Below, in pieces: positions 35,305 through 63,495 of a DNA stretch of 64,000 bases (positions within the stretch are counted from its first letter, which is position 1; each line of letters opens with the position of its first letter). The DNA is taken from assembly GCF_016735595.1 (NCBI RefSeq), contig NZ_JAERRB010000019.1:1-64000 (forward strand), written 5' to 3'. The position numbers were made by a program, and so were the translations under genes. The notes beneath the pieces are model-generated. The model had not been told where the DNA came from. It ran no database searches and worked only from the letters and a program-made list of their open reading frames with translations. Origin of the DNA: Chryseolinea lacunae (lineage in GTDB: Bacteria > Bacteroidota > Bacteroidia > Cytophagales > Cyclobacteriaceae).

Positions 35305-35342
35305 TGATTATCTACTAGCCTGGTGTGATGATCTTTTAGCAA
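35305..35342 (-). promoter_or_regulatory. Direct-repeat operator, site A (upstream of GH29)
   Basis: Reading toward the GH29 gene: half-sites TTGCTAAAAGATCATCA and AGGCTAGTAGATAATCA, separated by CACC. Their GCTA cores are exactly 21 bp apart (complement TAGC at 35337 and 35316). It lies about 110-147 bp upstream of the start codon. The same layout occurs at 37866, 39690, 51835, 51959, 63158 and, weaker, 50330. Confidence 0.7.
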
Positions 35343-35379
35343 GTCCGATCATCCTAACGAAATTATCGCGTCATATCCT

Positions 35380-37725
35380 TTACCGCCGAACAATCAACTT
35401 GAGTGCTGCCTGAGAGCGGAATACGGTCATCGCCACCTCCCCCGACGATAGTGCACCAAAAGAACGCTCCAAATCCTCGACGGTTTTGATGGTAGTATCC
35501 CCTAAGGCCAGTATCACATCATTGGGACGGAGATATTTCGACCAGAAACTCCACGTCTCCACTTCCAACACATACACCCCCGCCTCCGTGGCCATACCGG
35601 TAGCCGAGCGTTCACCCAGTGTCGTGAGGTTTTTAATAGACATTCCCATCCACGCGTACCGGTGCTCGCGCGACTCTGTATTGTCGAGTATCACAGGCAG
35701 TTGGACTTTTAACGCACGAGCTTTGAGGGAAGGCGAAAGAACGCCGAAGCTATCCATTGCAAAATTCCGGAATCCTATCGCATACGCGGCCGAGTTCTCT
35801 GCGACAGCATAGTCCCCCTCAATAGGATTGACAAAATCAGGCATAGCCGCCTTTGAGTGTAAGTCCGTCCCACCGGACCGCGCTTGCGCCAGAGCAAGGG
35901 AATCGGGAAAAAGATTGTAATCAACCTGATCGCCCCAATTACTCACGCGTATGGGAAAATAATGTCGAGTGACAATATTATGCCGAAAGATGTCATGACT
36001 GTTTGCAAACCACACATGCGGATGAAAGGAGTTATTGATGATAATATTATTCTCCACAACGCGGTAAAACCCTTCGCGTAGTTTTAGGCCGCCATTCAGA
36101 CAAACGTTGTTATAAATGTGGTAATTGCTGGAACCATCGTCCAAGTCGATATCCCAACCGTGATCACAACGAAAGCGGTTATTGCGAATAACGATGGGAT
36201 TCACGACATCCAAAAGAGGCAGGCCTGGAAGTGCCATCACCCTGCTTTTCATGGAATCGTAATTGGGATGCCAATACCGATCGCGTCCCCAGCTGTTGAA
36301 TGAACCATGGTCACCCGTTTCCAACACGGTATTGAAAACATCATTGTATTCAAAGATATGGCCACCCCATGTGCCTTCGCTGACATTGATGCCGGCGCGT
36401 GGCATGTTGTAAATAGTATTGTGACTGACGGTGATGTCTTGTGCCATCGAGATCTGAACTCCGGCAACCTGCTTCTCTACTAAACCAACATCATGAATCA
36501 GGTTATCATACACTAGACACCGCGCCGGATAGTTTCCAGTCTTGGGGCCCGGCACTATGTCCATGGCGTTCAAGGGAACAAATTGATTATACTCAAAACT
36601 GGGTGACCGCACCGCACCCGGATCGCCGACAAAGCATACGCCACTCGCTCCGATATTCACAATTTCACAACCAACAACCTGGTTGTCTCGATTGTAGTTA
36701 CTAAAAAAAACAGCGTTTCCACCAATAGCATCGAACGTGCAGTTCTTGATGATGCATTGCTCCGCCCCTTCCATCAACACAGCACCACCCCGGTAAATTG
36801 TCCAGTCGCTGCGCAGTAATGGCTCCTTGGTCTCCATAAACGTTCTCAGCGTATGAACCAGTGTGAGCCCTTCCAATGTGATATTGCGAACAGGCGATGC
36901 TTGGCTTCCACGGAACTCGAACAACTGCCGCAACTGCGGCGATTCAATCTTTGCTCCACGCAAATTGTTCGCCGCAAGATAATAGAGTTTACGATCCTGT
37001 TTACTATAATACCATTCGCCTAGAGTGTCGAGTTCTTCCCGTACGTTTTCAACAAATCGGTATTGCGTATGCATACCCGTTCTTCGATTGTTTTGAAAAC
37101 CACCCTCCAACAATAGCTTGCCGGTTGAATCTTTACCGGTGATCAAAAAGTGAAAGTCGCCCCATTCGCTTCCATGAAGAGCATGAAGGTAAGCACCTGA
37201 AGGATCCTTCCAACGCTCCGTTCGCGTCTTGCTGATGGCATCTGCAGATGTGCCATTATAATGACGCCGCAAGGGGTTGAAATTAGGATATCGCGCCATC
37301 GGCTGTTGCCTGCCGTCAACAAACAGTTGGTCGAACACAGGATCGTCAGGAATACTTGCCATGTGCAGGCCGTTTTTGAGAACGTGCCACTTGGGTAACA
37401 GAACTTTCGCGCCACTAATGGTTACTCGTTCATGGCCATAGGCTTTGAAAACCATTTCCTCACCATCCTCCCGGCTGTCAAGGAGGGTAAATACAAGGGG
37501 TTCATTTAAATAATAAGTCCCCTCACGGACATATACCGTCACCTTACCGGCAGTTTCCCGGGCCACAGCTTTCGCTTTCTGTAGGGTCGCAAAAGGCTTC
37601 TCCTTGGTACCTCGGTTATTGTCGTTCCCTTGCGCAGCGACAAAAAGATCAACTTGACCATGCGCATGACCGCACAGAAAAAATGAAGTCGCAACCCAAA
37701 GAAAAATAATCAATTGTGTTTTCAT
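35380..37725 (-). CDS. Secreted right-handed beta-helix protein with C-terminal PDZ domain (GH141-like?)
   Basis: 781 residues from ATG 37725 (MKTQLIIFLWVATSFF), which begins a signal peptide. The N-terminal part DLFVAAQGNDNNRGTKEKPF and YVREGTYYLNEPLVF is the usual start of secreted beta-helix enzymes. A long parallel beta-helix follows, with repeated N-x-I/V segments (ITLEGLTLV, CIIKNCTFDAIGGNAVFF, ITVSHNTIYNMPRAGINVS, PIVIRNNRFRCDHGWDIDLD). The last 85 residues form a PDZ-like domain (LRPNDVILALGDTTIKTVED). In the fucose context, GH141 (alpha-L-fucosidase/xylanase) is a candidate, but I cannot confirm catalytic residues, so it may instead be a lyase or other hydrolase. Operator site B precedes it. 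Confidence 0.7.
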   Translation of the reverse strand: MKTQLIIFLWVATSFFLCGHAHGQVDLFVAAQGNDNNRGTKEKPFATLQKAKAVARETAGKVTVYVREGTYYLNEPLVFTLLDSREDGEEMVFKAYGHERVTISGAKVLLPKWHVLKNGLHMASIPDDPVFDQLFVDGRQQPMARYPNFNPLRRHYNGTSADAISKTRTERWKDPSGAYLHALHGSEWGDFHFLITGKDSTGKLLLEGGFQNNRRTGMHTQYRFVENVREELDTLGEWYYSKQDRKLYYLAANNLRGAKIESPQLRQLFEFRGSQASPVRNITLEGLTLVHTLRTFMETKEPLLRSDWTIYRGGAVLMEGAEQCIIKNCTFDAIGGNAVFFSNYNRDNQVVGCEIVNIGASGVCFVGDPGAVRSPSFEYNQFVPLNAMDIVPGPKTGNYPARCLVYDNLIHDVGLVEKQVAGVQISMAQDITVSHNTIYNMPRAGINVSEGTWGGHIFEYNDVFNTVLETGDHGSFNSWGRDRYWHPNYDSMKSRVMALPGLPLLDVVNPIVIRNNRFRCDHGWDIDLDDGSSNYHIYNNVCLNGGLKLREGFYRVVENNIIINNSFHPHVWFANSHDIFRHNIVTRHYFPIRVSNWGDQVDYNLFPDSLALAQARSGGTDLHSKAAMPDFVNPIEGDYAVAENSAAYAIGFRNFAMDSFGVLSPSLKARALKVQLPVILDNTESREHRYAWMGMSIKNLTTLGERSATGMATEAGVYVLEVETWSFWSKYLRPNDVILALGDTTIKTVEDLERSFGALSSGEVAMTVFRSQAALKLIVRR

Positions 37726-37865
37726 TAGTAAATTCATTCCTATTATCCTTCAAAGCTACTTTGGCACCTGATCGTCAGGTATACTTTAAAGATCGTAATG
37801 ATCTTTAATTCCTTGAAATCTTAACACCTTAACACCGCAAGGTAAAAACGGGATGCTCGACTTTT

Positions 37866-37903
37866 TTATGATCTATTAGCATACACTGATGCGATATTAG
37901 CAA
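37866..37903 (-). promoter_or_regulatory. Direct-repeat operator, site B (upstream of beta-helix/PDZ gene)
   Basis: Half-sites TTGCTAATATCGCATCA and ATGCTAATAGATCATAA, separated by GTGT, reading toward the gene. The GCTA cores are 21 bp apart (complement TAGC at 37898 and 37877). It lies 141-178 bp upstream of the ATG. Confidence 0.7.
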
Positions 37904-39689: not shown

Positions 39690-39727
39690 CAGCTAATCGT
39701 ACACCATATCTTGCTAAGATTTGGCTA
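39690..39727 (+). promoter_or_regulatory. Direct-repeat operator, site G (upstream of KDG kinase operon)
   Basis: Half-sites CAGCTAATCGTACACCA and TTGCTAAGATTTGGCTA, separated by TATC; the GCTA cores start at 39692 and 39713, 21 bp apart. The site lies 87-124 bp upstream of the KDG kinase start. It links the uronate genes to the same putative regulator as the fucose genes. Confidence 0.65.
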
Positions 39728-39813: not shown

Positions 39814-40806
39814 ATGTCGCAAATCGTAACCTTCGGTGAAATCCTACTTCGCTTTTCAACGTCTGATCAAAATCGCTTTTCACAATCCTCACAATTGGCC
39901 ATTACGTTCGGAGGATCCGAAGCCAACGTAGCGGGTGCACTCGCATCCTGGGGTAGTCCCTGTATGCATATCACCGCGCTTCCCGAAAATGCAATCGGAA
40001 AGTGTGCTGCTGAAGCATTCAACAAATTAGGCGTAAATGTTCAGGCATTACCCGGCTCCGGCCGCATGGGAACATATTATATCGAAGGTGGCGTATCCTT
40101 GCGGTCCCCGCAAATCATTTACGATCGATATCATTCTGTTTTTAGCGAGGCTACTTTTAAGGGACTGGAATGGAAAAATATTCTGGCGAAAGCAAAATGG
40201 TTTCATTGGTCGGGTATAACCCCCGCAATATCTGCATCCGCGGCAGAAGCTTGCCTGACAGCCGTGCAGACAGCAAAGAGCATGGGGGTTAGTGTTTCCG
40301 GCGACATCAACTACCGCCGCAACCTATGGAAATATGGAAAGGCACCCATAGACATCATGCCGGAACTTATCGCGCACTCAGACTTGATTATTGCAGGCAC
40401 TGAGGACTTTAAAAACAGCGCCGGCATCCCATCCAACTCATTTGAAGACATGTGCAACCTGGCCATTAACCGATTTCCTAACATCAAGCAAATAGCCACT
40501 ACTCATCGACACACCAAAAATGCAAGCAACGAGTCCATCTCCGCTACGCTTTGGTCGAAAGGAAACGTGAGCGAATCGGAAACATTCCATATCGCTCCCG
40601 TTGTTGATAGGATTGGCGCCGGCGATGCATTTATGGCAGGGATTCTGTACGGTATCCTGAACGGTTACACGGATGTCGAAACTATAAATTTTGCAGCAGC
40701 CTCCTGTGCGCTAAAGCACACGATCAAAGGGGATGTGAATTTGTTATCCGTTCAAGAAGTGACTGCGTTAGTAAATAACGAACGGGTAGGACAATTGCGT
40801 CGATAA
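39814..40806 (+). CDS. kdgK: 2-keto-3-deoxygluconate kinase (PfkB family)
   Basis: 330 residues. PfkB/ribokinase features are FGEILLRFS near the start, the GGSEANVAGALASWG motif, and the catalytic VDRIGAGDAFMAGIL with base Asp271. It phosphorylates 2-keto-3-deoxy-D-gluconate to KDPG for the next enzyme of the operon. Its stop codon overlaps the ATG of the aldolase gene by one base (TAATG), so translation is coupled. With UxaB two genes downstream it belongs to the galacturonate (altronate) route. It is the first gene of a plus-strand operon of four. Confidence 0.88.
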   Translation: MSQIVTFGEILLRFSTSDQNRFSQSSQLAITFGGSEANVAGALASWGSPCMHITALPENAIGKCAAEAFNKLGVNVQALPGSGRMGTYYIEGGVSLRSPQIIYDRYHSVFSEATFKGLEWKNILAKAKWFHWSGITPAISASAAEACLTAVQTAKSMGVSVSGDINYRRNLWKYGKAPIDIMPELIAHSDLIIAGTEDFKNSAGIPSNSFEDMCNLAINRFPNIKQIATTHRHTKNASNESISATLWSKGNVSESETFHIAPVVDRIGAGDAFMAGILYGILNGYTDVETINFAAASCALKHTIKGDVNLLSVQEVTALVNNERVGQLRR

Positions 40807-41471
40807 TGAATATGCCTGACACCAACATTGTTTCCCGCCTTAAGAACGCCACTCTAATGCCCATCTGCGGCGAGAGCAATATTGAGACCCTTACCCAATT
40901 GGTTCGCTGCTGTTATGACAGCGGGCTACGCGTTTTTGAATTTACCAACCGCAGCAGTCAAGCCTTGCAGACTTTCGCCCTACTTATGGAAAGAAGAAAA
41001 GACTTTGAAAACATGCTTTTTGGAGTGGGGACGATCACCGATCGTAGATCAGCGGAAATTTTTATTTCGGCAGGCGCAGAATTTATTGTCGCCCCAATCG
41101 TAGATCGTGCTACCCAACGATGCTGTAGCCAGTACAATACGCCCTGGATTCCCGGCTGCGCAACACCCACCGAAATATTCCTTGCGCAAAGACTGAATGC
41201 TCCGATTATTAAAATTTTTCCAGCCGGCGTACTCGGCCCAGGATTCATCTCAAATGTCATGGCCCTAAAGCCAGACTTGCATCTGATGGCTACCGGAGGT
41301 ATTGATCCTTCAAAACAATCCCTGGCCAGGTGGCTCGCCGCGGGCGTAAAATGTATTGGACTAGGTTCCAAATTATTTCCCGATGCCCTTGTCAATCAAG
41401 GGAACGTGAATGAAATACAGTTCACTATCAAACAGACGCTCACCCATATCAAGGATATACTCAAATACTGA
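40806..41471 (+). CDS. eda: 2-keto-3-deoxy-6-phosphogluconate aldolase (KDPG/KHG family)
   Basis: 221 residues, class I aldolase. The Schiff-base lysine is Lys136 in APIIKIFPAGVLGPGF. Other motifs are LFGVGTITDR, GAEFIVAPIVD, WIPGCATPTEI and LMATGGIDPS. It splits KDPG into pyruvate and glyceraldehyde 3-phosphate. Overlap with kdgK and co-direction with uxaB give the pathway order. The start codon is ATG 40806, which shares a base with the kdgK stop. Confidence 0.9.
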   Translation: MNMPDTNIVSRLKNATLMPICGESNIETLTQLVRCCYDSGLRVFEFTNRSSQALQTFALLMERRKDFENMLFGVGTITDRRSAEIFISAGAEFIVAPIVDRATQRCCSQYNTPWIPGCATPTEIFLAQRLNAPIIKIFPAGVLGPGFISNVMALKPDLHLMATGGIDPSKQSLARWLAAGVKCIGLGSKLFPDALVNQGNVNEIQFTIKQTLTHIKDILKY

Positions 41472-41483
41472 CTCACGAAAATA

Positions 41484-42959
41484 ATGAGTAGACTTCTAAA
41501 TAGAACAACAATCGGCGTGGGACCAATCCCTCCCATCAAGGTAGTCCAATTTGGTGGCGGAAATTTTCTACGCGCCTTTGCCGATCTCTTTATTGAAGAA
41601 CTAAACGACAAATGCGGCTTCAACGGAAGTGTCGTCATTGTCCAATCCCAAACGCCAGAGAAGAACAATCCCATCACAAAACAAGACGGCCTTTACCACC
41701 TGCTTGAGAAGGGATACAAAAATGGTCGTCGGGTAGCCTCCACCAGACTCATCACGTGCATTCACTCCTGCATTCATGCGACCGAGTCTTATACTTGCTT
41801 TCAAGGTTTGGCGAAGACACCGTCCTTGCGGTTTGTAATCTCCAACACAACGGAAGCCGGAATTACCGATGGTGGGGAAGTGTTGATTGAGGGTATTTCA
41901 CCCATCACGTTTCCCGCTCGCCTTACCACCTTTCTTTACGCAAGGTACCAGGAAGGGCTACCAGGGTTGATTATACTCCCCTGCGAACTCATCGAAAACA
42001 ACGGAATTATTCTAAAAGAAATTATTCTTCGCTATGCGCAGCAGTTTACCGATGCAACGCAATTTTCCGACTGGATAAATACCCAGAATATCTTCTGCAA
42101 TACGTTGGTTGATCGAATTGTTCCTGGGGTCACATCGGAACTACAGCACGAAGTTGAAAAAACAACTGGCTACATAGACGAAATTCCGGTGCAGGCCGAA
42201 CCCTATTACTTCTGGGCAATCGAGGGCACTCACACTGTCGCGAATGAATTTCCAGTTGACAAATTATCTCACAATATAGTTTTCACCACGGACCTCGCGC
42301 AGTACCGCATTCGAAAAGTCCGAATTCTCAACGGCCTGCATACGCTGATGACGTCGATGGCATTGCTCAAGAACATTCACAGCGTTCGTTCGGTATTCGA
42401 AGACGACGAGTTATCAATAGCGATTCTCCGCATCTTATACAAAGAAATATTACCAACGCTCCGCGCCGACCAAGACGCTCTTCACGCATATGCACGGGAT
42501 GTTCTGGAGCGCTTTAAAAATCCGTTTTTCGAGCACCAATTGAGCAGCATCGCTTTAAATTCAATTTCCAAATTTCGGGTCCGCGCATTGCCATCGCTGC
42601 TTGACTATTACAGCATCAAGGGCACGATCCCTCCAGGGATAGCATATTCCCTGGCCTGCTGGATTCGTTTTTACCAAGGCGTATGGCGAGGCAGCAATCT
42701 CCCCGTCAAAGACCTACCGGAAGTCATCCAAGCGTTCAACCAGGCCTGGCGTTCAACAAACCTTAACCAGATGGTCTACCAGATATTAGCAAATACCACC
42801 CTATGGGGGCAAGACTTAACCACGTTGGAAGGACTTCCAGATCTAATAACACTTTTCCTAGATCATCTCGCCAAGGACCAATCCATTCACCTGGACTACA
42901 TCCGCACCGAGGGAGAGACTTTTAAATCAAACGACGATCCACTGTTATCAACGTCATAG
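41484..42959 (+). CDS. uxaB: Tagaturonate reductase (altronate oxidoreductase)
   Basis: 491 residues, mannitol dehydrogenase family. The N-terminal nucleotide-binding part reads IKVVQFGGGNFLRAFADLFI; VISNTTEAGITD and LPCELIENNG follow, then CNTLVDRIVPG and the catalytic region FTTDLAQYRIRKVRILNGLHTL with the family Lys. It reduces D-tagaturonate to D-altronate with NADH. The isomerase UxaC, which makes tagaturonate from galacturonate, is not in the window. The next step, altronate dehydration, would be done by the UxaA-family gene at 47743. The gene starts 12 bp after eda. Confidence 0.9.
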   Translation: MSRLLNRTTIGVGPIPPIKVVQFGGGNFLRAFADLFIEELNDKCGFNGSVVIVQSQTPEKNNPITKQDGLYHLLEKGYKNGRRVASTRLITCIHSCIHATESYTCFQGLAKTPSLRFVISNTTEAGITDGGEVLIEGISPITFPARLTTFLYARYQEGLPGLIILPCELIENNGIILKEIILRYAQQFTDATQFSDWINTQNIFCNTLVDRIVPGVTSELQHEVEKTTGYIDEIPVQAEPYYFWAIEGTHTVANEFPVDKLSHNIVFTTDLAQYRIRKVRILNGLHTLMTSMALLKNIHSVRSVFEDDELSIAILRILYKEILPTLRADQDALHAYARDVLERFKNPFFEHQLSSIALNSISKFRVRALPSLLDYYSIKGTIPPGIAYSLACWIRFYQGVWRGSNLPVKDLPEVIQAFNQAWRSTNLNQMVYQILANTTLWGQDLTTLEGLPDLITLFLDHLAKDQSIHLDYIRTEGETFKSNDDPLLSTS

Positions 42960-43040
42960 CCTATACCTGTCCTCACGACTGCTTCATCTCCCGGTTCTAA
43001 ACAGGATCCCTTGAAACCCATTGGCAAGAACAAAATCATA

Positions 43041-43871
43041 ATGAAAATCGACTCGCACGTTCATTTCTGGCAGTACTCAGAGAAAGAATATCCTTGGATC
43101 GGCACGACGATGTCAGGCATAAGGCGCGACTTTATACCAACGGATGCCGAACCAATATTTCACCGTCACGGAATCGCCGGCTGTATTGCTGTACAAGCAC
43201 GACAAAACGAAGCTGAAAACGAATTCATGCTCTCCTTGGCCAAACGAAGTTCATTCATTAAAGGGATTGTCGGCTGGGTACCCCTGAAAGACAAAAGTTT
43301 GCAAAGCAAGCTGGAAGCCTATGCACAGCAACCGTTGATCCGCGGATTTCGTCACGTGATCCAAGACGAGCCCCTGCTGGAGTTTATGCTTGACCCCAGC
43401 TTTATTCGGGGGCTTCGTTTACTTCACCACCATAACTACTGCTACGACCTCCTCATCAAACCGTCACATCTGCCGGTGGCCGCAGCCCTGGTCAGGCTTT
43501 TACCAGCCCAACCCATCGTCATTGATCACATCGCCAAACCCGACATCGCTAGAGGCGAATTTACCCGCTGGGCAAAAGACATACAGCGTCTGGCCTCTTT
43601 TGATAACATCTATTGCAAAGTGTCAGGAATGACTACAGAAGCACGCTGGAAAGAATGGAGTGAAAACGACTTCCGCCCCTATTTAGACACAGTGGTGGAA
43701 TCCTTTGGCCTAAAACGCCTTATCTACGGATCTGATTGGCCCGTTTGCTTGCTATCAACTGACTACGAACAGCAACTCCGAATGGTGGAAAACTACTTCC
43801 GTTCGTTTTCCAAACCTGAACAGGCCTCGATCTTCGGATTGAATGCGCTTGAATTTTACAAGATTGCTTAG
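43041..43871 (+). CDS. Amidohydrolase, probable L-fucono-1,5-lactonase
   Basis: 276 residues from ATG 43041 (MKIDSHVHFW); the ATG at 43011 adds ten atypical residues. It is a COG3618-type amidohydrolase: HVHFW metal ligands, IAGCIAVQARQNEAEN, RGFRHVIQDEP, PIVIDHIAKPD and the Asp of IYGSDWPVCLL. Relatives include L-fuconolactonase and L-rhamnonolactonase of oxidative deoxysugar pathways. The neighbouring SDR genes, FAH-family hydrolase and FucP favour L-fucono-1,5-lactone as substrate. It is the last gene of the KDG kinase operon, which ties the two sugar routes together. It converges on the SDR at 43980. Confidence 0.82.
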   Translation: MKIDSHVHFWQYSEKEYPWIGTTMSGIRRDFIPTDAEPIFHRHGIAGCIAVQARQNEAENEFMLSLAKRSSFIKGIVGWVPLKDKSLQSKLEAYAQQPLIRGFRHVIQDEPLLEFMLDPSFIRGLRLLHHHNYCYDLLIKPSHLPVAAALVRLLPAQPIVIDHIAKPDIARGEFTRWAKDIQRLASFDNIYCKVSGMTTEARWKEWSENDFRPYLDTVVESFGLKRLIYGSDWPVCLLSTDYEQQLRMVENYFRSFSKPEQASIFGLNALEFYKIA

Positions 43872-43979: not shown

Positions 43980-44759
43980 TTATAAGGACCTATCCAAATG
44001 AACATATCCACCGTCCACGTGAATGAGTTGTCCCGTAGTGTGACTTGATCGTTCGCTGAGCAAAAAGACAGTCATGTTAGCGATTTCCTCTACCGAAGTC
44101 ATCCGTTGTCCCAAGGGTATTTTTGATTCAATAAGTTTTAATTTCTCTTCTGGATTGGGTAATGTTTGGATCCATTTTTCATACAGGGGTGTATAACATT
44201 CCGCTACGATGAGCGCATTCACCCGGATTTCGTACTTTAATAACTCAACGGCCCACTCACGAGTAAGCGCGTTCCGGCCACCGTTAGAGGCTGCATAAGC
44301 GGAAGTATTTCCTTGTCCAGTTTCGGCTGTCTTCGAACCGATGTTTACAATGGAACCTTTGCTTTTAATCAAGTACGGCAACGCATAGTGCGCCATCAGA
44401 TAGTAGTGGACAAGATTTTTATGCAGGGACGCCATAAAGCCTTCGTAACTTCCATGCTCAAGCCCTACCCCATCATTGACGCCTGCGTTATTTACCAATC
44501 CATCAATGCGATCAAATATTTTCGCAATGTGCTGAATCACTTGTTGGCTTGCTGCCGGCTCAGACAGTTCCGCTACGAACTGTCTGGCCCGACCTCCACG
44601 CTCCTCGATCATTCTGACGGCGTCCAGGTTGTCCTTTTCAGCTCGGCCAACGATAACTGGAATAGCTCCCTCTTGGGATAATACCTGGCTTATGCCTAAG
44701 CCAATACCTTTGGCTCCGCCGGTAACAATTACTACTTTATCCTTCAATTGAAAATCCAT
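43980..44759 (-). CDS. SDR oxidoreductase, probable L-fucose dehydrogenase
   Basis: 259 residues, classical short-chain dehydrogenase. The cofactor motif is TGGAKGIGLGI, then LVNNAGVND, and the catalytic Ser lies in VNIGSK. The catalytic Tyr is in SAYAASNGG, where the usual YxxxK reads YxxxN (Asn in place of Lys), followed by NALTREWAVELLKYEIRVNA. As I recall, SDRs of this kind occur in fucose clusters of Bacteroidota, so the Asn may be normal there, but this needs an alignment. It would oxidise L-fucose to L-fucono-1,5-lactone with NAD(P)+. It is the last gene of the long minus-strand operon that runs from 50300 to 43980. Confidence 0.8.
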   Translation of the reverse strand: MDFQLKDKVVIVTGGAKGIGLGISQVLSQEGAIPVIVGRAEKDNLDAVRMIEERGGRARQFVAELSEPAASQQVIQHIAKIFDRIDGLVNNAGVNDGVGLEHGSYEGFMASLHKNLVHYYLMAHYALPYLIKSKGSIVNIGSKTAETGQGNTSAYAASNGGRNALTREWAVELLKYEIRVNALIVAECYTPLYEKWIQTLPNPEEKLKLIESKIPLGQRMTSVEEIANMTVFLLSERSSHTTGQLIHVDGGYVHLDRSL

Positions 44760-44843
44760 AATGTTGTTTTAAAGTTTACTAAATCGGCAATCTGCCTCCA
44801 GAACTGCTCGTGGGCATGTTAAAAACTTAGAAACTATCCATCC

Positions 44844-45701
44844 TCATGCACAGTACGTCACCGCGCGTTGTTTACTGCTACCAAGCCCCTCGATGCCGAG
44901 CTCTATTTCGTCTCCTGCTTTAATGTAAATCGGTTCCGGTTTGATACCCAGGCCAACGCCAGCCGGTGTTCCTGTGCTGATGACATCACCGGGAAGTAAT
45001 GTCATGAACTGACTCAGATAGTGAACAAGAAAAGGAATTTTGAAAATAAGGTTTGATGTATTGCTGTCCTGATATTTTTTACCATTCACGGTAAGCCACA
45101 TCTCCAGACGATCGACGTTTGTAATTTCATCTTTCGTAACCAAAAATGGACCCAGCGGTGCAAACGTATCGCAGCCTTTGCCCTTCGCCCATTGTCCTCC
45201 GCGCTCCAATTGGAACGCCCGTTCGCTGTAGTCGTTGTGTAAACAGTATCCGGCAACATACTGAAGTGCATTTTCCTCTTCCACATAACTCGCTTTCTTT
45301 CCCATTACTACTGCCAACTCTACCTCCCAATCTGTTTTTGTGCTGTGTTTAGGAATCACCAGGTTATCGTTTGGGCCACACAACGCTGTTGTCGACTTAA
45401 AGAATAGGATCGGCTCTGCCGGGATGGTAGCATTTGTTTCCAAGGCGTGATCACGGTAGTTTAATCCAATACACACAATTTTCGAAGGCCGGGCTATCGG
45501 TGAGCCCAGACGAATGGAGGCTTCAACTTTTGGCAAGGTGTCCTTTTGCTTCGATACAAGCTCCTTCAGTTTTGACAGGCCATCGTTTTCAAAGAAATCT
45601 TCATTGTAATCCGACACGAATTGTGAGACATCGTATCGGGTATCATTACTCATGACCCCTGCTTTCTCTTTCCCTGTTTCTCCAAAGCGTATTAATTTCA
45701 T
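44844..45701 (-). CDS. FAH-family hydrolase, probable 2,4-diketo-3-deoxy-L-fuconate hydrolase
   Basis: 285 residues of the fumarylacetoacetate hydrolase fold. Catalytic and metal features are intact: GLNYRDHALE with His85, the Glu-x-Glu of DWEVELAVV, the Asp of LHNDYSER, the KGKGCDTFAPLGPFL segment and the STGTPAGVG loop. Such enzymes split 2,4-diketo-3-deoxyaldonates; with the neighbours, the product would be pyruvate plus L-lactate. A divergent paralogue lies at 49428. The operon context includes an L-lactate-type oxidase and two SDRs. Confidence 0.88.
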   Translation of the reverse strand: MKLIRFGETGKEKAGVMSNDTRYDVSQFVSDYNEDFFENDGLSKLKELVSKQKDTLPKVEASIRLGSPIARPSKIVCIGLNYRDHALETNATIPAEPILFFKSTTALCGPNDNLVIPKHSTKTDWEVELAVVMGKKASYVEEENALQYVAGYCLHNDYSERAFQLERGGQWAKGKGCDTFAPLGPFLVTKDEITNVDRLEMWLTVNGKKYQDSNTSNLIFKIPFLVHYLSQFMTLLPGDVISTGTPAGVGLGIKPEPIYIKAGDEIELGIEGLGSSKQRAVTYCA

Positions 45702-45730
45702 ATTCCTTTTTAAAATAACTTTTCACTTGG

Positions 45731-46900
45731 CTAATCCCCTGTGCTCTGCTTAGGCAGGTGTTTGTAAAAATCCCCTGTTGTTGCACAACATAACTGATCC
45801 ATCACCTGGTGTAATTGTGTTTTCAAAATATTAGTGGTGTGATCGCCTCCTTCACTCCCTAATGCCGAAATGCCGTACATGAACGTTCGCCCCATAAATG
45901 TAAATTCGGCACCATGGGCCATAGCCCGTGCAACATCCGGACCGGAACGAATACCGCTATCCATCATGATCTTCAGCCTGCCCTTATAGTTTTTGACAAT
46001 CGGTTGTATGGCTTTAATGGCCGATTGTCCCGCGTCCAGTTGTCTTCCACCATGATTGGACACGATGATGCCATCCAATCCCAAGGTCAGCGCCATAGCC
46101 GTATCTTCTTCACTCACTACACCTTTTAACACGATTTTTCCTTTCCAACGATCGCGTATGGCGGCAATCTTTTCCTTGCTGAGTTTTCCGGAAAATGTTC
46201 GGTTCATGAACTGTCCCAATTGTTTCATGTTCATCTCACCGGGCATATAGGGTTTAAGCGTGGAAAACTCAGGCTGTCCGTGTATCAATGTTTGTATGGC
46301 CCAGGCAGGGCGTCCCATGATCTGCCAGATGTTCTTAACGGTCATGCGTGGCGGCATGGCCAATCCATTTCGGATATCACGCGGGCGGTAGCCAAACGAC
46401 GGGACATCGCACAACAACACCAGCACCGGATAATTTGCTGCCTCCAATCTTTTAATAAGGTCGTCACGAAGGCTGTTTTCTGCCGGGTGATACAATTGAA
46501 ACCAGGCCCGTCCTTCTGTGAGCTCGCTGATGCGCTCAATGCTACTCGTCGTTACTGTACTAAGCACAAAAGGTATATTATTCCGAAAGGCAGCACTGGC
46601 CAATATCTCCGTAGCGTTTGGCCACATGAGACCCTGTAGGCCCACCGGTGCTACGCCGAACGGTGCATCGTATAGGTGACCGAACAATTCAGTTTTTAAA
46701 TCAGAGCTTACATGGTCGGTGATATACTGTGGCACAAGTTCTACTTTGCGCAGTTCGGCCGTGTTCCGGAATACGTTTACATCCTCATTGCAACCTCCGT
46801 CTAGATACTCAAAGGCAAAGCCAGGAATTCGACCGCGCGCACGTTGTCTTAAATCTTCAATGGACGGATACCGAGTGTTGAATGGCCAGGTCATCGTCAC
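45731..46900 (-). CDS. lldD: FMN-dependent alpha-hydroxy-acid oxidase/dehydrogenase (L-lactate type)
   Basis: 389 residues. Characteristic motifs of the LldD family are YLDGGCNEDVNVFRNT, APVGLQGLMWPNA, WFQLYHP, VLKGVVSEEDTA and SNHGGRQLDAG, with the catalytic His and Arg, and then MMDSGIRSGPDVARAMAHGA. It oxidises L-lactate to pyruvate. In this operon it would deal with the lactate released from fuconate, a pairing known from other fucose clusters. The ATG overlaps the stop of the upstream SDR by 4 bp (46897-46900), so the two are coupled. Other (S)-2-hydroxy acids are possible. Confidence 0.88.
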   Translation of the reverse strand: MTMTWPFNTRYPSIEDLRQRARGRIPGFAFEYLDGGCNEDVNVFRNTAELRKVELVPQYITDHVSSDLKTELFGHLYDAPFGVAPVGLQGLMWPNATEILASAAFRNNIPFVLSTVTTSSIERISELTEGRAWFQLYHPAENSLRDDLIKRLEAANYPVLVLLCDVPSFGYRPRDIRNGLAMPPRMTVKNIWQIMGRPAWAIQTLIHGQPEFSTLKPYMPGEMNMKQLGQFMNRTFSGKLSKEKIAAIRDRWKGKIVLKGVVSEEDTAMALTLGLDGIIVSNHGGRQLDAGQSAIKAIQPIVKNYKGRLKIMMDSGIRSGPDVARAMAHGAEFTFMGRTFMYGISALGSEGGDHTTNILKTQLHQVMDQLCCATTGDFYKHLPKQSTGD

Positions 46901-47661
46901 CCGTTTAAGGTTACAAAGCCGCCATCAATCAGATAGTCACTGCCCGTAATGAAAGAGGCTTCCTCGCTCGCCAGGTACAATGCCAACGCGGCGATTTCTA
47001 CAGGCATTCCCATGCGCCCGATCGGCTGAGATTTTGACAATTTTTCAAACATTTCAGCTTCTTTACCTGCATAGTTATTTTCCAAAAAACCATCCACAAA
47101 AGGTGTGTGCACTCTAGCCGGTGAAATACAATTGCAGCGGATATGGTCCTGCAAATAATCCTTTGCGACAGAAAGCGTCATTGCCTTTACTGCACCTTTA
47201 GCAGTAGAATACGCGAAACGATCGTTCAGACCCACGTGCGCTGAAATCGAGGTCATGTTAATGATTACGCCGCGACCTTGCTTTTTCATCTGAGGAATGG
47301 CGGCAAAGAGGCAATTGTATACTCCTTTCACATTGATGCTCATGACGCGATCAAAATCCGCTTCTGTGGTAGTATCCGCCCGGCCAATGTGCGCTATACC
47401 CGCATTGTTCACCAGGATATCAAATGCGCCAATACTGGCAAACGCGTCAACCACGGCGATTTGATGTGCCACATTACAAGCATACGCTTTTGCTTTCCCA
47501 GCTTGGGCAGTTATCTCGCGCACGGTTTCATCGGCTGCTTCATCACGTAATTCAAGGATGTGAACTTCCGCACCCTGCTGGGCAAACAACAAGGCGATGG
47601 CTTTGCCGATGCCACTACCGGCACCGGTAATAACAGCCCTTTTATTTTGTAAGGAGAACAT
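46897..47661 (-). CDS. SDR dehydrogenase, probable 2-keto-3-deoxy-L-fuconate dehydrogenase
   Basis: 254 residues with the normal SDR set: TGAGSGIGKAIALLFA, LVNNAGIAHIG, MTSISAHVGL, catalytic FAYSTAKGAVKAMT (YxxxK intact), and CISPARVHTPFVDGF. Family members next to FAH hydrolases oxidise 2-keto-3-deoxy-L-fuconate at C4. It overlaps the oxidase gene by 4 bp and follows the UxaA-family gene. Its motif completeness contrasts with the YxxxN SDR at 43980. Confidence 0.87.
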   Translation of the reverse strand: MFSLQNKRAVITGAGSGIGKAIALLFAQQGAEVHILELRDEAADETVREITAQAGKAKAYACNVAHQIAVVDAFASIGAFDILVNNAGIAHIGRADTTTEADFDRVMSINVKGVYNCLFAAIPQMKKQGRGVIINMTSISAHVGLNDRFAYSTAKGAVKAMTLSVAKDYLQDHIRCNCISPARVHTPFVDGFLENNYAGKEAEMFEKLSKSQPIGRMGMPVEIAALALYLASEEASFITGSDYLIDGGFVTLNG

Positions 47662-47742
47662 AAGTTTAAGATTCTATTTCTGACATCACTATTTTTTTTC
47701 GGACCAATTAACCGTGACTGGCTAAGCATCCTGTTTTGCATT

Positions 47743-50651: not shown

Positions 50652-51782
50652 TCACTTTGGAACGCTCACCAATATGGGAATCTGCACACTAAACGTTTGC
50701 CTCACGCCATGCACGTCGAGCGTGTCGGCCGCGCAGACAAGTACATATGGTGTATCGCCCTCAAAAAGTAACTGTGGTCTTTCAAGATGCAAAAATGTCT
50801 GGCTCCGGCCGTCTTGCCATTGAATGGTACGATCGGAGACAGGTGATTTATCACATCGACGCCACGTGATTCCATCAGGTGAATTGTATAGCACCAGAGA
50901 TGGATTATTTGCGCCTGCACTATCCCGCATGCTCTTAAGAAGGGCAAAATATTGATTGTTTTGAAACCAGACATAGGGATCCTCTGCTGGAAAATCAACG
51001 CCGTGAACAGTAAATATCTCACCATCGTGTTTGACAAACGGGCCTGTGGGACTTTCTGACGTTGCCGCCAGGTGAACGACAGGTCCACCAAATGGCAGCG
51101 GACGCTTTTTACCTACCGCTTTGTAGATCATTAGAAATGTTCCATCAGGCCGTTGCACGATAGCCGGATTGGTGACCACAAGAGCGTCAGCAGCTGTACT
51201 GTCGGCGGCTACATCAATGATCGGTTTGTCAAACCGGGTCCAGGGCCCATCGGGACTGTCTGCCACGGCCACGCCAATGCGTTGGTTATTCCGATGAACA
51301 AAGTTCAGTTTTTCTACGGCTAAATCTTCGGTATTGGGATTGATACCATCTCCTGTATTTCCCATATAGTACAGATAATATTTCTCACCGAACCTATGGA
51401 TGGTCGGATTGTGCGTACACAAGCCATCCCAAAATTGAGCTCCACGCACCGGCAGAACCACATCACGGAATGCAAAGGGTCCAAAAGGCGAAGAAGACAC
51501 GGCATGTTTAATCACCGAATGTGTAACCCATGCCCATCCCATTCGCTTAGGCCAAGTGGAATAAAACATGTGGAACAATCCATCGTCACCTTTTATCAAT
51601 GAGCCGCACCATATGCTCAAGCTGTCGTCGGCAAACCTGGCCGTCATAGGCAACTTGCCCAAGGCAATGTGCATATCACAGGCAGAATCACCATCGGTTG
51701 ATACGCTACCCGTTGTTTTTTTTGTACACGCTACGCCAACGGCGAAAAGGAGGACCACCGGAAAAATTCGGAATATTATCAT
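50652..51782 (-). CDS. Five-bladed beta-propeller glycoside hydrolase, GH43/GH117-like lipoprotein
   Basis: 376 residues. An N-terminal lipoprotein signal ends at VGVACTKK (Cys19). The propeller contains IWCGSLIKGDDGLFHMFYS, CTHNPTIHRFGEKYYLYYMG, TNPAIVQRPDGTFLMIYK, FPAEDPYVWFQNNQYFALLK and HLERPQLLFEGDTPYVLV. These resemble GH43/GH117 and related clan propellers, but I could not match the Asp/Asp/Glu set exactly, so the subfamily and linkage are open. It is divergent from FucP, with two operator copies in the 355 bp between them. Confidence 0.75.
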   Translation of the reverse strand: MIIFRIFPVVLLFAVGVACTKKTTGSVSTDGDSACDMHIALGKLPMTARFADDSLSIWCGSLIKGDDGLFHMFYSTWPKRMGWAWVTHSVIKHAVSSSPFGPFAFRDVVLPVRGAQFWDGLCTHNPTIHRFGEKYYLYYMGNTGDGINPNTEDLAVEKLNFVHRNNQRIGVAVADSPDGPWTRFDKPIIDVAADSTAADALVVTNPAIVQRPDGTFLMIYKAVGKKRPLPFGGPVVHLAATSESPTGPFVKHDGEIFTVHGVDFPAEDPYVWFQNNQYFALLKSMRDSAGANNPSLVLYNSPDGITWRRCDKSPVSDRTIQWQDGRSQTFLHLERPQLLFEGDTPYVLVCAADTLDVHGVRQTFSVQIPILVSVPK

Positions 51783-51834: not shown

Positions 51835-51872
51835 TTGCCAAGTATTAGCAATTGATGATGATCTATTAACTA
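51835..51872 (-). promoter_or_regulatory. Direct-repeat operator, site C (upstream of propeller hydrolase)
   Basis: Reading toward the hydrolase: half-sites TAGTTAATAGATCATCA and TTGCTAATACTTGGCAA (the latter has TTGCTAA intact), with a 4-bp spacer and cores 21 bp apart. It lies 53-90 bp upstream of the hydrolase ATG. An additional complement TAGC at 51814 is one further turn (32 bp) away. Confidence 0.65.
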
Positions 51873-51958: not shown

Positions 51959-51996
51959 TTGCTAACCGGTCGCCACAACCTGCTAATATCTTATAA
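51959..51996 (+). promoter_or_regulatory. Direct-repeat operator, site C' (upstream of fucP)
   Basis: Half-sites TTGCTAACCGGTCGCCA and CTGCTAATATCTTATAA, separated by CAAC; GCTA cores at 51961 and 51982, 21 bp apart, reading toward fucP. It lies 142-179 bp upstream of its ATG. Confidence 0.65.
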
Positions 51997-52137: not shown

Positions 52138-53355
52138 ATGCCTATCCTGATAATGCCCAAAGCCTCTACCAAGTCCCGCACGTCAAGTTCCATGCTCTTT
52201 CCTTTTATCCTGGTTACGAGCCTTTTCTTTTTATGGGGGCTGGCGTACGGCCTCCTGGATGTTTTAAACAAACACTTTCAGAACACACTGGCCGTAAGCA
52301 AACAAAACTCCATGCTCCTGCAGGCTGCATACTTTGGTGCTTACTTTTTAATGGCCCTGCCCGCCGGAATATTTATGAATCGGTTTGGCTATCGACGTGG
52401 AATTGTGCTTGGCCTTTTACTGTATGCTGTCGGGGCCTTTCTCTTTTATCCCTCAGCATCCGCCGAAAGCTTTCCGCTTTTTCTCACCTCCTTATTCATA
52501 CTCGCCAGCGGACTAGCCTTTCTTGAAACGGCTGCAAATCCATATGCGAGTGTATTGGGGGATGAAAAACTGAGCACCTTTAGATTAAACTTGGCACAAA
52601 GCTTTAACGGCGTTGGGTCGTTTCTCGGCCCTATCATTGGGGCAGCCCTCTTCTTTGGCCAACCCACCAAAGCTTCGGACCTCTCCTCGGTAAAGTTTGT
52701 ATATCCGGTAATTGGCATCATCGTTCTGATGGTGGGCGTGCTGTTCTTAATTGTAAAACTCCCGGAAATAAAACAGGATGCGGCTTCTGGGCTAAACGTT
52801 AAAGTCCTGTTTTCAATCCGGCATTTCAAGTATTCAGTTATCGCTCAATTTTTTTACGTCGCCGCACAGGTTGGTAGCGCCGCATTGTTCATTAATTACT
52901 GCGTTGAATCCCGTGAGCATATGCTCGAACAAGACGCATCCTACTTACTCTCAGCGGCCCTGCTTCTTTTCACCCTCGGTCGCTTTGTGGGTACCGCCCT
53001 CATGAAAGTAATAAAGCCCCACGTGCTGTTGAGCATCTTCGCCGCGGTAAACATCCTGCTGTGTGTAGTCATCATCTACTACCATTCCTCCACTGGAATT
53101 CTGGCGCTGCTCATCACGTTCTTTTTTAATTCAATTATGTTCCCCACCATCTTCGCGCTAGGCATCAAAGGGCTAGGCGAACATACCAAATCGGCGTCAT
53201 CCTTTCTCATCATGTCCATTGTAGGAGGAGCGATCGTGCCGATAGTGATGGGGAGTTTTGGATCGACTGCCACTGCCTTCTGGACGCCGTTATGTTGCTT
53301 CTGTGTTGTATTGTTCTTTGGTACAACGGGATACAAACCTGTGAAGCTTAACTAG
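52138..53355 (+). CDS. fucP: L-fucose:H+ symporter, MFS (FucP-like)
   Basis: 405 residues with about 12 membrane helices. The FucP signature is clear: FILVTSLFFLWGLAYGLLDV, LNKHFQNTLAVSKQNSMLLQ, AYFGAYFLMALPAGIFMNRF and FLETAANPYASVLGDEK (the ETAANPY motif), then LAQSFNGVGSFLGPIIG. Close relatives carry L-fucose, glucose/galactose or other hexoses; the operon points to L-fucose. ATG 52138 or 52153 could start it. It is the first gene of a plus-strand operon with the zinc dehydrogenase and the GAF/PAS protein. Two operator copies lie upstream. Confidence 0.92.
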   Translation: MPILIMPKASTKSRTSSSMLFPFILVTSLFFLWGLAYGLLDVLNKHFQNTLAVSKQNSMLLQAAYFGAYFLMALPAGIFMNRFGYRRGIVLGLLLYAVGAFLFYPSASAESFPLFLTSLFILASGLAFLETAANPYASVLGDEKLSTFRLNLAQSFNGVGSFLGPIIGAALFFGQPTKASDLSSVKFVYPVIGIIVLMVGVLFLIVKLPEIKQDAASGLNVKVLFSIRHFKYSVIAQFFYVAAQVGSAALFINYCVESREHMLEQDASYLLSAALLLFTLGRFVGTALMKVIKPHVLLSIFAAVNILLCVVIIYYHSSTGILALLITFFFNSIMFPTIFALGIKGLGEHTKSASSFLIMSIVGGAIVPIVMGSFGSTATAFWTPLCCFCVVLFFGTTGYKPVKLN

Positions 53356-54495: not shown

Positions 54496-56220
54496 ATGGA
54501 GCAAACCCTCGAACATTCCGCTGTGCTCAGGCCCTATGATAAGAACCTAACACGCGTCGGCTATAGCCTGGCACTGGCCGGTCTGATATTATCCATTACG
54601 AGCAGCCTGTTTTTCTCCGCGTTGCTGGTTGTACCCTTGCTCATCATTGTAAGTGGATTGACGATCATCACCCATAAGGTGACCGACACTCGCCCATTAG
54701 CCGAATTTATTGCTGGGCCCCTCACCACACTGCTGTTCTCAATCCTGTTATCGGCCCTACCGCGGGCAACACAAATTATCGAGGTGTCCTTAACGACTTT
54801 CACACTCGCCATAGGCCTTCTTCCATTTATTGTCATCGAACCCCAACGAAAAATTGCGCGCTTCCTTTACGTTCATGGGAATATCTTGTTAATGCTCTCC
54901 TACCATTTCCTGCTGTACCGCGCCCTTGAGCCAATCGTGTCTGGTTGGACTGCACTTTCAGAGTTTGCCGTTCTTTTTGTCGCCTCCGCGGCCGTACTTG
55001 GATTGACCTATCGTATGATTATTTTGCAGATGAAGGAAATACTGCTTCATCAAACTTTGTCCATTCGGTTAGACTCCGCGCAAAGGGTCATTAAAGCTAC
55101 CGAAGCAGAACTAACCGCACACCGCGCGGATAGTGAACAAACCCGAAAAGAAGAGCAAAACCGGCGATGGATATCCGAAGGCATAGCCGTTGTATCTGAG
55201 ATTCTCAGAAAACAACAACAGGAAAGTGAGCTACATTGTGAGCTGACCTCCACGATTGTGAAACGATTGAAGGCCAACCAGGCCTCCTTTTTTATCGTCG
55301 ACGAAGATCAAATGCATCTGCAACTGCAGGCTTGTTATGCTTACGAACGCCGCAAATTTCTTCAACAGAAGATACATGTTAAGGAGGGCCTGGTTGGTCA
55401 ATGCTACCAGGAAGGGGAAGTCATCATCCTTAAAAATGTTCAAAAGGACTATATCAAAATTACCTCTGGCCTGGGGGCAGCCACCCCAAGATGCTTAGTT
55501 CTTGTACCTTTAAAATCCGAGCTTCGCGTCGAAGGCGTCCTGGAAATTGCATCGTTCAGCCAATTCAACGTCCATCAGTTAGAGTTTCTTGAACGAGTCT
55601 CCTACATTATCGGCACGGGCATTCGATCCATTCACATCAGCTTGCAGACGCAGCGTATGTTGGAGAACACGCGCCGCCAGGCCGAGCAGATAACCCAGCA
55701 CCAGGAAGAAACCAGACGACATGTCGAACACCTGATGGCGGTGCAGAAAGAAATGCATGAAAAGGAAATGCAATTACGTGCACAATCAGACTTGCTAGAG
55801 TTGGTAGTGGACAACATTCCCTTTCCGGTATTTATCAAAAACGAGCGTGGGCAATACACCTTGGCGAACCGCGCACAGGCCTCTATTCTTAATTATCCAA
55901 AAGAAGAAATTATTGGCTTTGACGACAGTAAATTTATCGAGGACAGCCAAGCCATTCGCCTGATCCGCGAGTCGGACCATAGGGTGATTGACCAACAGCG
56001 GGAAGTACATTTTCCAGAGCAACAACTTCGAATGCCGGGCGGCGAACAAAAGATTCTTAAAACCTCTAAGATTCCCTTCCGAAACAGCCTCACACAGAAA
56101 ATCAATATTCTCGGAGTATCAATTGATGTCACTGACGTTAATAAAGCACAACAACAGTTATCCAGTGAAATTGAAGCACTAAAAAGAGAACTGGAATCCA
56201 GTCAACGTATATCGTCCTAG
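54496..56220 (+). CDS. Six-helix membrane protein with GAF and PAS domains, no output domain
   Basis: 574 residues. About six membrane helices occupy residues 20-180. A coiled coil (about 185-230) leads to a GAF domain (about 240-370; ANQASFFIVDEDQMHLQLQA, VKEGLVGQCYQEGEVIILKN). A second coiled coil follows (TRRQAEQITQHQEETRRHVE), and a C-terminal PAS domain (about 440-560; VVDNIPFPVFIKNERGQYTL) ends in another coil. No DHp, HATPase, GGDEF or other output module is present. It may sense a ligand and signal through a partner, perhaps the regulator of this sugar locus. It is the third gene of the fucP operon, 45 bp downstream. Confidence 0.85.
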   Translation: MEQTLEHSAVLRPYDKNLTRVGYSLALAGLILSITSSLFFSALLVVPLLIIVSGLTIITHKVTDTRPLAEFIAGPLTTLLFSILLSALPRATQIIEVSLTTFTLAIGLLPFIVIEPQRKIARFLYVHGNILLMLSYHFLLYRALEPIVSGWTALSEFAVLFVASAAVLGLTYRMIILQMKEILLHQTLSIRLDSAQRVIKATEAELTAHRADSEQTRKEEQNRRWISEGIAVVSEILRKQQQESELHCELTSTIVKRLKANQASFFIVDEDQMHLQLQACYAYERRKFLQQKIHVKEGLVGQCYQEGEVIILKNVQKDYIKITSGLGAATPRCLVLVPLKSELRVEGVLEIASFSQFNVHQLEFLERVSYIIGTGIRSIHISLQTQRMLENTRRQAEQITQHQEETRRHVEHLMAVQKEMHEKEMQLRAQSDLLELVVDNIPFPVFIKNERGQYTLANRAQASILNYPKEEIIGFDDSKFIEDSQAIRLIRESDHRVIDQQREVHFPEQQLRMPGGEQKILKTSKIPFRNSLTQKINILGVSIDVTDVNKAQQQLSSEIEALKRELESSQRISS

Positions 56221-62900: not shown

Positions 62901-63050
62901 CACCGAAACGCCGGGAAGTATCTCCCCAGACGTGGTTGAGACCCTTCCATGAACGATTGCCTGGGCTCTCAGTGAATTGGAGCTGCCCAGGAGAAGCAGA
63001 AGGAAAAGACCCAATCGCAAAACTGTTTTTCCTGTAGAAAATGTTTTCAT
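59973..63050 (-). CDS. susC: SusC/RagA-family TonB-dependent outer-membrane transporter
   Basis: 1025 residues. A signal peptide (MKTFSTGKTVLRLGLFLLLL) precedes a carboxypeptidase-like N-terminal domain (IVHGRVSTTSGEILPGVSVL, TTTDVEGNFTLSDV). The TonB box region and plug follow: GEIVVVGYGTQRKIETTGSI, VAQGLQARAAGVQITQNSAA, and GSISVRVRGTNSINGTSEPLYVIDGI. A 22-strand barrel ends in an aromatic C-terminus (KSYLAGIQVSF). It imports oligosaccharide across the outer membrane with SusD as lid. No anti-sigma-binding extension is seen, so it is a SusC of the simple kind. Operator site D lies 108-145 bp upstream. Confidence 0.96.
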   Translation of the reverse strand: MKTFSTGKTVLRLGLFLLLLLGSSNSLRAQAIVHGRVSTTSGEILPGVSVLIKGTAKGTTTDVEGNFTLSDVQSSDVLVFSFIGYSNQEVEVGNQTSIIVTLPPDVKTLGEIVVVGYGTQRKIETTGSIISVKAEELMQTPVVNVAQGLQARAAGVQITQNSAAPGGSISVRVRGTNSINGTSEPLYVIDGIQISNGASNSGVSSAGSANDSGSKDLSPLSTINPGDIESIEVLKDASATAIYGSRGANGVVLITTKRGKAGSTRITYETYYGMQKVRKTMALMNAAEFAQLENDVFKTKVYSDPASLGQGTDWQSLIFREAPMQNHQLSISGGSEKTQLSLSLNYFNQDGIIVNSNFKRYSLRTSFDHRVSNHLKIGTNIMGSYNINSAVPTGSGGDGNSDVLNGVLGAAMAAGPTLKPYRDDGSIYNFSDQLDGRYREVVNPLARLAVLNKSNINRVLANVYGEANVVTGLTYRASFNADLQNSLTNGYTPRYTIAFVDQNPSSGSGSKTWSNTLTLLHESILTYSKTLAENHTVKFTGVFATQTTAFQTNAVTANGFPNDATTNENLGLALTVATTSNRTKERLDSYMGRINYGYKDKIFFDVTARTDGSSKFGANNHYGFFPAASVAWRLSEESFMKAATFVSDLKLRGSYGLTGNAGAISPYKSLPLLVTGSNYQINHAYQKGISPAGIVNPDLRWEKSLQADIGIDASLFQDRLELTVDVYKKTTRDLLYDMALPLSSGYKFITTNLGAIENKGLELAATAHLTPGAVKWNISANATFNRNKVLDIDGQTQERFVTPYSVIKVGQPLGLFKTYIFNGIYQTGEPVLAGPDGGRTGGAKILDSNKDGAISADDQVISGNPNPKFIYGFSSNVSFRKFDFNVFFSGSYGNDIYNFTRYSYENPNGLRNQFAYVVNHWSETNPSNELSGPLQGGRQPITDKFIEDGSYLRCKNITLGYTLPAIKGVSNIRVYVSANNLFTVTNYSGFDPEVNSFGNSNVAIGVDNFTYPTAKSYLAGIQVSF

Positions 63051-63495
63051 TACTTATTTAAGGTTTAGTTTATGAAGTCATCCAGAGGTGTGATGTATCA
63101 TCGAATCCCCTTGCGACCTCAATCGATTGCAAAGTCTGGTTTCTGCTAAAAAAAAAGTGAATGAATTTTAGCAGGCAGTGGTCAAGAATTAGCAGATTGG
63201 GTCTACAGAGTCGGGCTAGATAAAATGAATAAAACGCCAGTTGAAGATTATACCCTGGCAGGTGGTATATATGCAAACTAGTCCTTTAAAAAAATAACCA
63301 ATTTACCCATGGTCTCCATCTCATCAATTTATAGCTCTCGATCGGATACCTGTAAATCTTCGAGCACTTGGAAACGTCCTACTATGTTGCTTCCAGAGCG
63401 ACTTTAGATTGCTTACACCTCTTCGCTGAACAGTGCCGCAGGTACTTAGGCCAAACCCTGCTCCGACTGTTTCCAAACAAGATAAATTCTAACAT
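63051..63495. other. Intergenic stretch upstream of susC
   Basis: It holds the susC leader and operator site D (63158-63195), plus sequence after the stop of the partial GH29. No gene was recognised; plus-strand short frames are noise. Confidence 0.5.
63158..63195 (-). promoter_or_regulatory. Direct-repeat operator, site D (upstream of susC)
   Basis: Reading toward susC: half-sites CTGCTAATTCTTGACCA and CTGCTAAAATTCATTCA, separated by CTGC; GCTA cores are 21 bp apart (complement TAGC at 63190 and 63169). Confidence 0.65.

Follow-up and report, generated by a model that had tools for sequence, protein, structure and literature searches.

How are the dispersed transcription units of a sugar cluster brought under common control? 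The question is raised by contig NZ_JAERRB010000019.1 of Chryseolinea lacunae (132,144 bp, hereafter C11), which makes up 1.67% of a 7.9-Mb genome in 29 contigs and whose bases 1-64000 form the window, that is, the whole stretch of DNA analysed here. Fucose and uronate genes in this region are preceded by a 38-bp element, a tandem pair of 17-bp half-sites with a 4-bp gap. Judging from its sequence and surroundings, it is almost certainly an operator for an AraC-type activator, and it probably serves to bind a single activator of the AraC family, for which the protein encoded at C11:75889-76752 is the best candidate.

A paired repeat upstream of the sugar genes

The original prediction, an earlier reading of the window, had reported six strong pairs and a weaker copy. 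The six strong pairs were correctly placed, and each reads 17+4+17 in the sequence, whereas the weak copy, given as 50330-50367, was one repeat out of register; the corrected pair, TTATTAAAAACGCATTA/TTGCTAAATTCTCATTG, lies at 50351-50388 on the reverse strand. Another site within the window, at 30463-30500 (reverse strand), was absent from that prediction and precedes a GH36/GH31-like gene. The putative operators of the window are the following:

30463-30500, reverse strand: weaker site, before the GH36/GH31-like gene (open reading frame 28566-30452); TAAATTTG 22-29 nt downstream
35305-35342, reverse strand: site before the GH29 gene 33423-35195; TATCTTTG 22-29 nt downstream
37866-37903, reverse strand: site before the beta-helix/PDZ gene 35380-37737; imperfect -7 element, CTTG and not TTTG, at 25-28
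39690-39727, forward strand: site before the PfkB/KDPG aldolase/tagaturonate reductase/fuconolactonase-like operon 39814-43871; TTTG at 27
50351-50388, reverse strand: weaker site, in its corrected register, before the fucose operon 43980-50300; TAGCTTTG 22-29 nt downstream
51835-51872, reverse strand: site before the GH43-like gene 50652-51782; TTTG at 26
51959-51996, forward strand: site before fucP 52138-53355; TTTG at 26
63158-63195, reverse strand: site before susC/susD 63050-58427; TTTG at 25

For the GH36/GH31-like gene, an in-frame ATG at about 30374 suits the promoter better than the listed start of the open reading frame. Rightward, beyond the window, five more sites (C11:72329, 90702, 92678, 119108 and 123826, all on the reverse strand) bring the total to 13, spread over 93 kb of the contig. 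The half-site consensus is TTGCTAATAnnYCAYCA (17 bp), and the two copies stand head to tail, two helix turns apart, as in an AraC-type operator.

The spacing does not depend on how the motif was chosen. Indeed, among same-strand GCTAA-GCTAA pairs within 60 bp on the whole of C11, counted with no motif selection, 8 of 11 are exactly 21 bp apart. A half-site matrix built from nine sites, which count among its own matches by construction, exceeded 12 bits at 13 places when the spacing was 21, and at 0-5 places for any other spacing between 15 and 31; the leave-one-out scores of the nine were 19-35 bits. Sites 63158 and 72329 are copies of one another (33/38 identical) and are therefore not independent; the next closest pair of sites shares 27 of its 38 bases. 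Four other matrix matches on C11 exceeding 8 bits are not counted among the 13 sites: 115797, which lies in a coding frame and was set aside once it was known to lack TTTG, 131063, 131042 and 28255.

Position relative to the promoter

A regularity absent from the original prediction links the repeat to the promoter. TTTG follows the repeat at an offset of 25-27 in six of the nine strong sites (P 1.8e-8); among all eight weaker matrix matches above 8 bits it is found in four, at 26 (P 2e-5), and none of the four matches left out has it at 25-27. It is thus present at this offset in 10 of the 13 sites, whose consensus over positions 22-29 is [TG]A-N-[CAT]-TTTG. The Bacteroidota -7 element is TAnnTTTG, and it is centred near -7 in Bacteroides. 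Since the element found here is taken to be centred likewise, the repeat would span about -70 to -33, which we take to be the place occupied by araI1-I2 in Escherichia coli. This fixed position beside the -35/-33 region, deduced from the -7 sequence, points to the placement of an AraC activator next to the -33 element.

Confinement to the cluster

The pairs are a property of this cluster and not of the genome. Exact TGCTAA-N15-TGCTAA occurs four times in the genome, always on C11 (P 8e-8). With one mismatch, 31 copies are found, five of them on C11 (P 1.5e-4); three of the five are counted sites, and the other two, at 22767 and 67796, are not among them. Over the whole genome there was no excess with 0-2 mismatches, as the 385 matches are fewer than the 694 of the reversed-pattern control, so that the enrichment belongs to the cluster only. 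A profile of the nine sites, run on the genome with 150 of 398 candidates scored, returned the nine themselves (by construction) and 119112 on C11 (E 0.2), and no further match up to E 10. The joint pattern of both half-sites with TTTG at its fixed place, which was derived from the C11 sites themselves, has seven exact occurrences in the genome, six of them on C11 (P 1.5e-10).

Candidate regulators

The following genes encode candidates for the regulator:

C11:75889-76752, reverse strand: one-component AraC, with an N-terminal AraC_binding/cupin-like domain and a C-terminal HTH_18 domain; 12 kb beyond the window
C11:76829-77872: LacI, beside araC, in the cluster
C11:94711-98844: hybrid two-component system (HTCS), in the same cluster
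6701-7261, forward strand: AraC-type gene of the window, outside the sugar genes
14933-15832, reverse strand: AraC-type gene with an AraC_binding domain, in the window, away from the sugar genes

The first of these, hereafter the cluster AraC, scores 22.8 bits for AraC_binding (cut-off 21.1), 24.9 for Cupin_2 (just below its 27.2) and 71.6 for HTH_18; a regulator of the one-component AraC type, AraC_binding/cupin plus HTH_18, is thus encoded within the cluster itself. Both recognition helices in its helix-turn-helix region resemble those of its homologues. Four other proteins resembling it are encoded elsewhere in the genome. A paralogue on contig C12 (locus L126) adjoins a repeat of its own, ATGATAAAAAACAGTCA/CGGGCAAAATACAGGAA, which differs from that of C11 and scores lower (6.9 bits). 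This repeat is close to an ACAGTCA type found beside many AraC homologues.

Repeats beside AraC homologues and beside hybrid two-component systems

The original prediction had left open whether an AraC-type or a hybrid two-component regulator is involved, and the surroundings of the two kinds of gene favour the one-component AraC. In a search with the cluster AraC, 230 of 295 genomes of the family gave a match. From 29 loci and 40 stretches around the matches listed we took 69 upstream regions, of which 56 remained after removal of 13 near duplicates. Scored with the C11 matrix, they peak at spacing 21 alone, with a mean of 6.2 against 1.6 (standard deviation 0.7) at 32 other spacings (z 6.7); at least 8 bits were reached at spacing 21 in 23 of the 56 regions, against 4.3 on average at the other spacings. 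A repeat count made with no matrix also peaks at 21, with at least 12/17 identical bases in 20 of the 56 regions (z 6.8). The same kind of repeat is found beside homologous araC genes, as expected of a one-component AraC regulon, and 19 of the 23 repeats face away from the araC gene. An earlier comparison of 17 AraC-adjacent regions with 86 other promoter regions had given a moderate difference (P 5e-4).

The promoter rule recurs there in a related form. Once three of the 23 sites, with less than 45 nt downstream, had been dropped, A..TT[TG][GA], a pattern chosen post hoc, was found at offset 23 in 11 of the remaining 20, against a background of 0.14 per offset; four of the 20 have plain TTTG at 26.

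Beside HTCS genes the picture is different. In 73 promoter regions from 14 stretches of the C. lacunae genome and two others (L171-L184, L107 and L108), the C11 matrix gave no signal at spacing 21 (z -0.1), with at least 8 bits in only one region; in this control, several own-genome matches are confined to the sensor part, and an AraC paralogue is also encoded in L180. Counted with no matrix, 21-bp repeats that differ in sequence are modestly enriched (z 2.0, four regions), and spacing 24 ranks higher. These four repeats, for instance TCAAACGATTGCAA twice, are possible HTCS operators.

Fucose loci in relatives

Orthologues (70-76%) of the dehydratase 47743-49380 gave a second view, restricted to the best 80 of 577 loci, mostly from Flavobacterium and Pedobacter. 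An AraC homologue is encoded in 34 of these 80. In 26 of them (24 from Flavobacterium, two from other Flavobacteriaceae) araC and the dehydratase gene diverge, and the gap between them contains the repeat in all 26 cases (8.1-14.6 bits), followed in 25 by TAnTTTT[AG] at offset 22. In four others araC is divergent from fucP instead, and the gap holds the repeat each time (15.5-17.9 bits). The repeat thus accompanies araC in 30 of the 34 loci, standing before the gene opposite to it, be it the dehydratase gene or fucP. Among the other 54 of the 80 loci, the top score before the dehydratase is 11.1, in a locus devoid of araC (L185), and the next is 6.0.

No comparable set of sites was found in the 295 genomes of the family, under strict filters and with 22 candidates scored per genome. 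A genome of the same genus (G136) has the fucose operon (55-71%) but lacks, within 60 kb, both an AraC match and the repeat, which speaks for the link between the two; the only 21-bp repeat there differs in sequence. The model R1 gave matches with E at or below 0.1 in 40 of the 295 genomes, own genome included, the best foreign one at E 5e-4. Twenty-nine foreign matches (L045-L073) were considered as true sites and rejected: tblastn within 1.5 kb detected no relative of the cluster AraC, of the HTCS output domain or of the LacI, and they are for that reason taken as chance. A scan of the contigs with the cluster AraC protein detected no relative either.

Which protein binds the element?

Each candidate makes a claim on the element. 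The HTCS at C11:94711-98844 has an AraC-type output domain that could bind the same layout after sensing periplasmic oligosaccharides. It belongs to the same cluster, sites 90702 and 92678 lie within 4 kb of it, and Bacteroides HTCS motifs are described, in the part of PMC3878776 available, as direct repeats with an average of 21 bp between sites, a period of about that length being the one found here; the modest matrix-free excess near HTCS genes goes in the same direction. However, the GH88-like, susC and susD genes that directly follow this HTCS would be its most natural targets, and no matrix match from 94711 to 105029 of C11 exceeds 8 bits; the C11 matrix is silent near HTCS genes and gives its signal beside AraC homologues, and such a site is absent from the stretches of 15 and 20 kb that were examined for the HTCS homologues of two other genomes, G159 (48%) and G061 (40%), respectively. 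We regard control by the HTCS as unlikely. It seems improbable, too, that the site serves another AraC-type protein of the genome and that the cluster AraC has other targets. Such proteins do exist, at 6701-7261 and 14933-15832 in the window and as the four relatives encoded elsewhere, but the 14933 protein aligns weakly to the cluster AraC (23.9 bits) and lies outside the sugar genes, and the C12 paralogue has its different, weaker-scoring repeat; moreover, the cluster AraC has the sites all around it, and the matching repeats belong to homologues of this very protein.

Two further explanations concern the nature of the element itself. Sites 63158 and 72329 are clear duplicates, and the repeat could have spread by duplication, or be AT-rich promoter sequence devoid of regulatory meaning; yet the remaining sites share at most 27/38 bases while keeping the same conserved positions, and their distance to the -7 element is nearly fixed, which makes this account very improbable. 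An operator for the LacI-family protein, whose gene lies within the cluster beside araC, is scarcely credible. LacI operators are palindromes, whereas the element is a head-to-tail repeat.

We retain the cluster AraC as the likely binder, and several observations count against that assignment. The HTCS shares its cluster, and the window holds two more AraC-type genes. Among the matches listed from the 295 genomes, its homologues do not exceed 42% identity, so that the C11 pair of regulator and motif is seen in one genome only. The matrix scan of C11 found no site before the lacI-araC-GH95-GH43 genes. Three of the nine strong sites have no TTTG (CTTG at 37866 and 90702, TTTC at 72329), and exact TAnnTTTG at offset 22 is found in only three of the 13 sites. 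As for the homologues, 33 of the 56 upstream regions score below 8 bits. Four of the 34 araC-holding dehydratase loci (L214, L218, L224 and L234) have no convincing repeat; in these, araC and the next fucose gene do not diverge, and only 74 bp are available in L234. The 26 loci from Flavobacteriaceae are closely related and therefore represent few independent events; their half-sites, AAGATAATTAAAGATTA/CGGATAATATTAGACTA, are similar and not identical to those of C11, and their -7 element ends in TTTA.

A model for activation and its relation to known systems

The claim of a shared AraC-type operator with the 17+4+17 layout of araI is upheld by the promoter position and by the repeats found across genera. 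On this basis, each half-site would take one DNA-binding domain, the GCTAA and YCA boxes, about one helix turn apart, accommodating its two helix-turn-helices, and two AraC monomers would sit head to tail, two helix turns apart. As the downstream half-site would end at about the expected -33, with the -7-like element ending in TTTG at a fixed distance, the bound dimer could replace the -33 contact and recruit RNA polymerase. The inducer may be L-fucose itself or a compound formed early in its breakdown, which is a guess. Glycoside hydrolases, SusCD uptake, fucP, the non-phosphorylating fucose route and the 2-keto-3-deoxygluconate (KDG)/uronate route would be switched on together.

One of the closest parallels is araI1-araI2 of E. 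coli, which consists of 17-bp half-sites with a 4-bp gap and a 21-bp period, the promoter-proximal half-site lying at the -35 region. The C11 sites have the same layout and promoter-proximal placement; they differ by their half-site sequence, by a Bacteroidota -33/-7 promoter and by their number, 13 in one cluster. The AraC-family RhaR regulons of Bacteroides, Bacillales and Enterococcus also have direct repeats with 21-bp periodicity (PMC3870299, as far as the available text goes) and likewise control the use of a deoxysugar; RhaR serves the rhamnose route, and that text gives no -7 distance for it. The HTCS operators of Bacteroides thetaiotaomicron (PMC3878776, same limit) are again direct repeats of about 21 bp before polysaccharide utilization genes, although for another class of protein, and promoters near the HTCS genes of C. 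lacunae do not match the C11 matrix. Since HTCS and RhaR repeats both have this period, the design must be considered already known. The FucR of Bacteroides likewise governs fucose use, but belongs to the GntR family in the available part of PMC3878776; the accessible portion of PMC5507952 deals with other bacteria whose fucose/fuconate loci have a FucR, and does not state its family, and that of PMC11253607 holds nothing on site layout. Among the titles listed in literature searches, none concerned an AraC regulator of fucose use in Bacteroidota or this -7 spacing rule. The C11 motif, its regulon and its link to a regulator were not met in the literature searched, some of it available in part.

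A broader proposal, which we hold to be about evenly balanced, is that one-component cupin-type AraC proteins of Bacteroidota share one promoter design, in which a 17-4-17 repeat replaces the -33 and stops about 21 bp short of a TAnnTTTG-like -7 element, the present case being a 93-kb multi-locus regulon for fucose and uronates. If true, the targets of many uncharacterised AraC genes of Bacteroidota would be predictable from sequence. The spacing rule (repeat, about 21 bp, -7 element) is found in three data sets and could aid such predictions. The present analysis also ties an AraC gene devoid of close relatives to a likely DNA site, and for a sugar cluster not yet characterised it offers a regulon, with 13 sites, that can be tested.

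Genes under the sites and neighbouring loci

The transcription units bearing on fucose and uronates are:

39814-43871, forward strand: uronate plus lactonase operon (PfkB, KDPG aldolase, tagaturonate reductase, fuconolactonase-like)
43980-50300, reverse strand: putative fucose operon (SDR, FAH hydrolase, FMN dehydrogenase, SDR, UxaA-family dehydratase, FAH hydrolase), its function suggested by families and context
52138-53355, forward strand: fucP, L-fucose:H+ symporter (TIGR00885, above cut-off)

In the first of these operons the tagaturonate reductase gene matches NF002969 above its cut-off, and the fuconolactonase-like gene matches NF052480 with 258 bits, below the cut-off of 400. All three units are preceded by a site, so the view that fucose and uronate genes share it, already put forward in the original prediction, holds. 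The sites outside the window precede genes for a FAD oxidoreductase/symporter, a small open reading frame (92212-92517) before an MFS gene, and an NmrA-like gene; that at 119108 lies in a stretch with no clear gene. Site 72329 precedes a decayed copy of the susC 5' end, duplicated from that at 63158, and the open susC starts 436 bp further on. The decayed segment, C11:71893-72366 (L031), includes the promoter, whose -7 TTTG has become TTTC with the operator kept.

The region C11:94711-105029 (L032, L033) encodes the HTCS, then a GH88-like hydrolase (recognised by eye, no Pfam hit) and susC/susD, and has no such operator. It is a second polysaccharide locus beside the fucose one, perhaps under different control. 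In the window, the gene at 30653-32308 (reverse strand) encodes a TPR protein that has a transmembrane stretch and ends like a histidine kinase (by eye, NAHKLRAP), and in which Pfam detects no ATPase domain. The gene at 54496-56220 (forward strand), in which Pfam detects no kinase domain, encodes a membrane GAF/PAS sensor and stands directly after the fucP-dehydrogenase genes.

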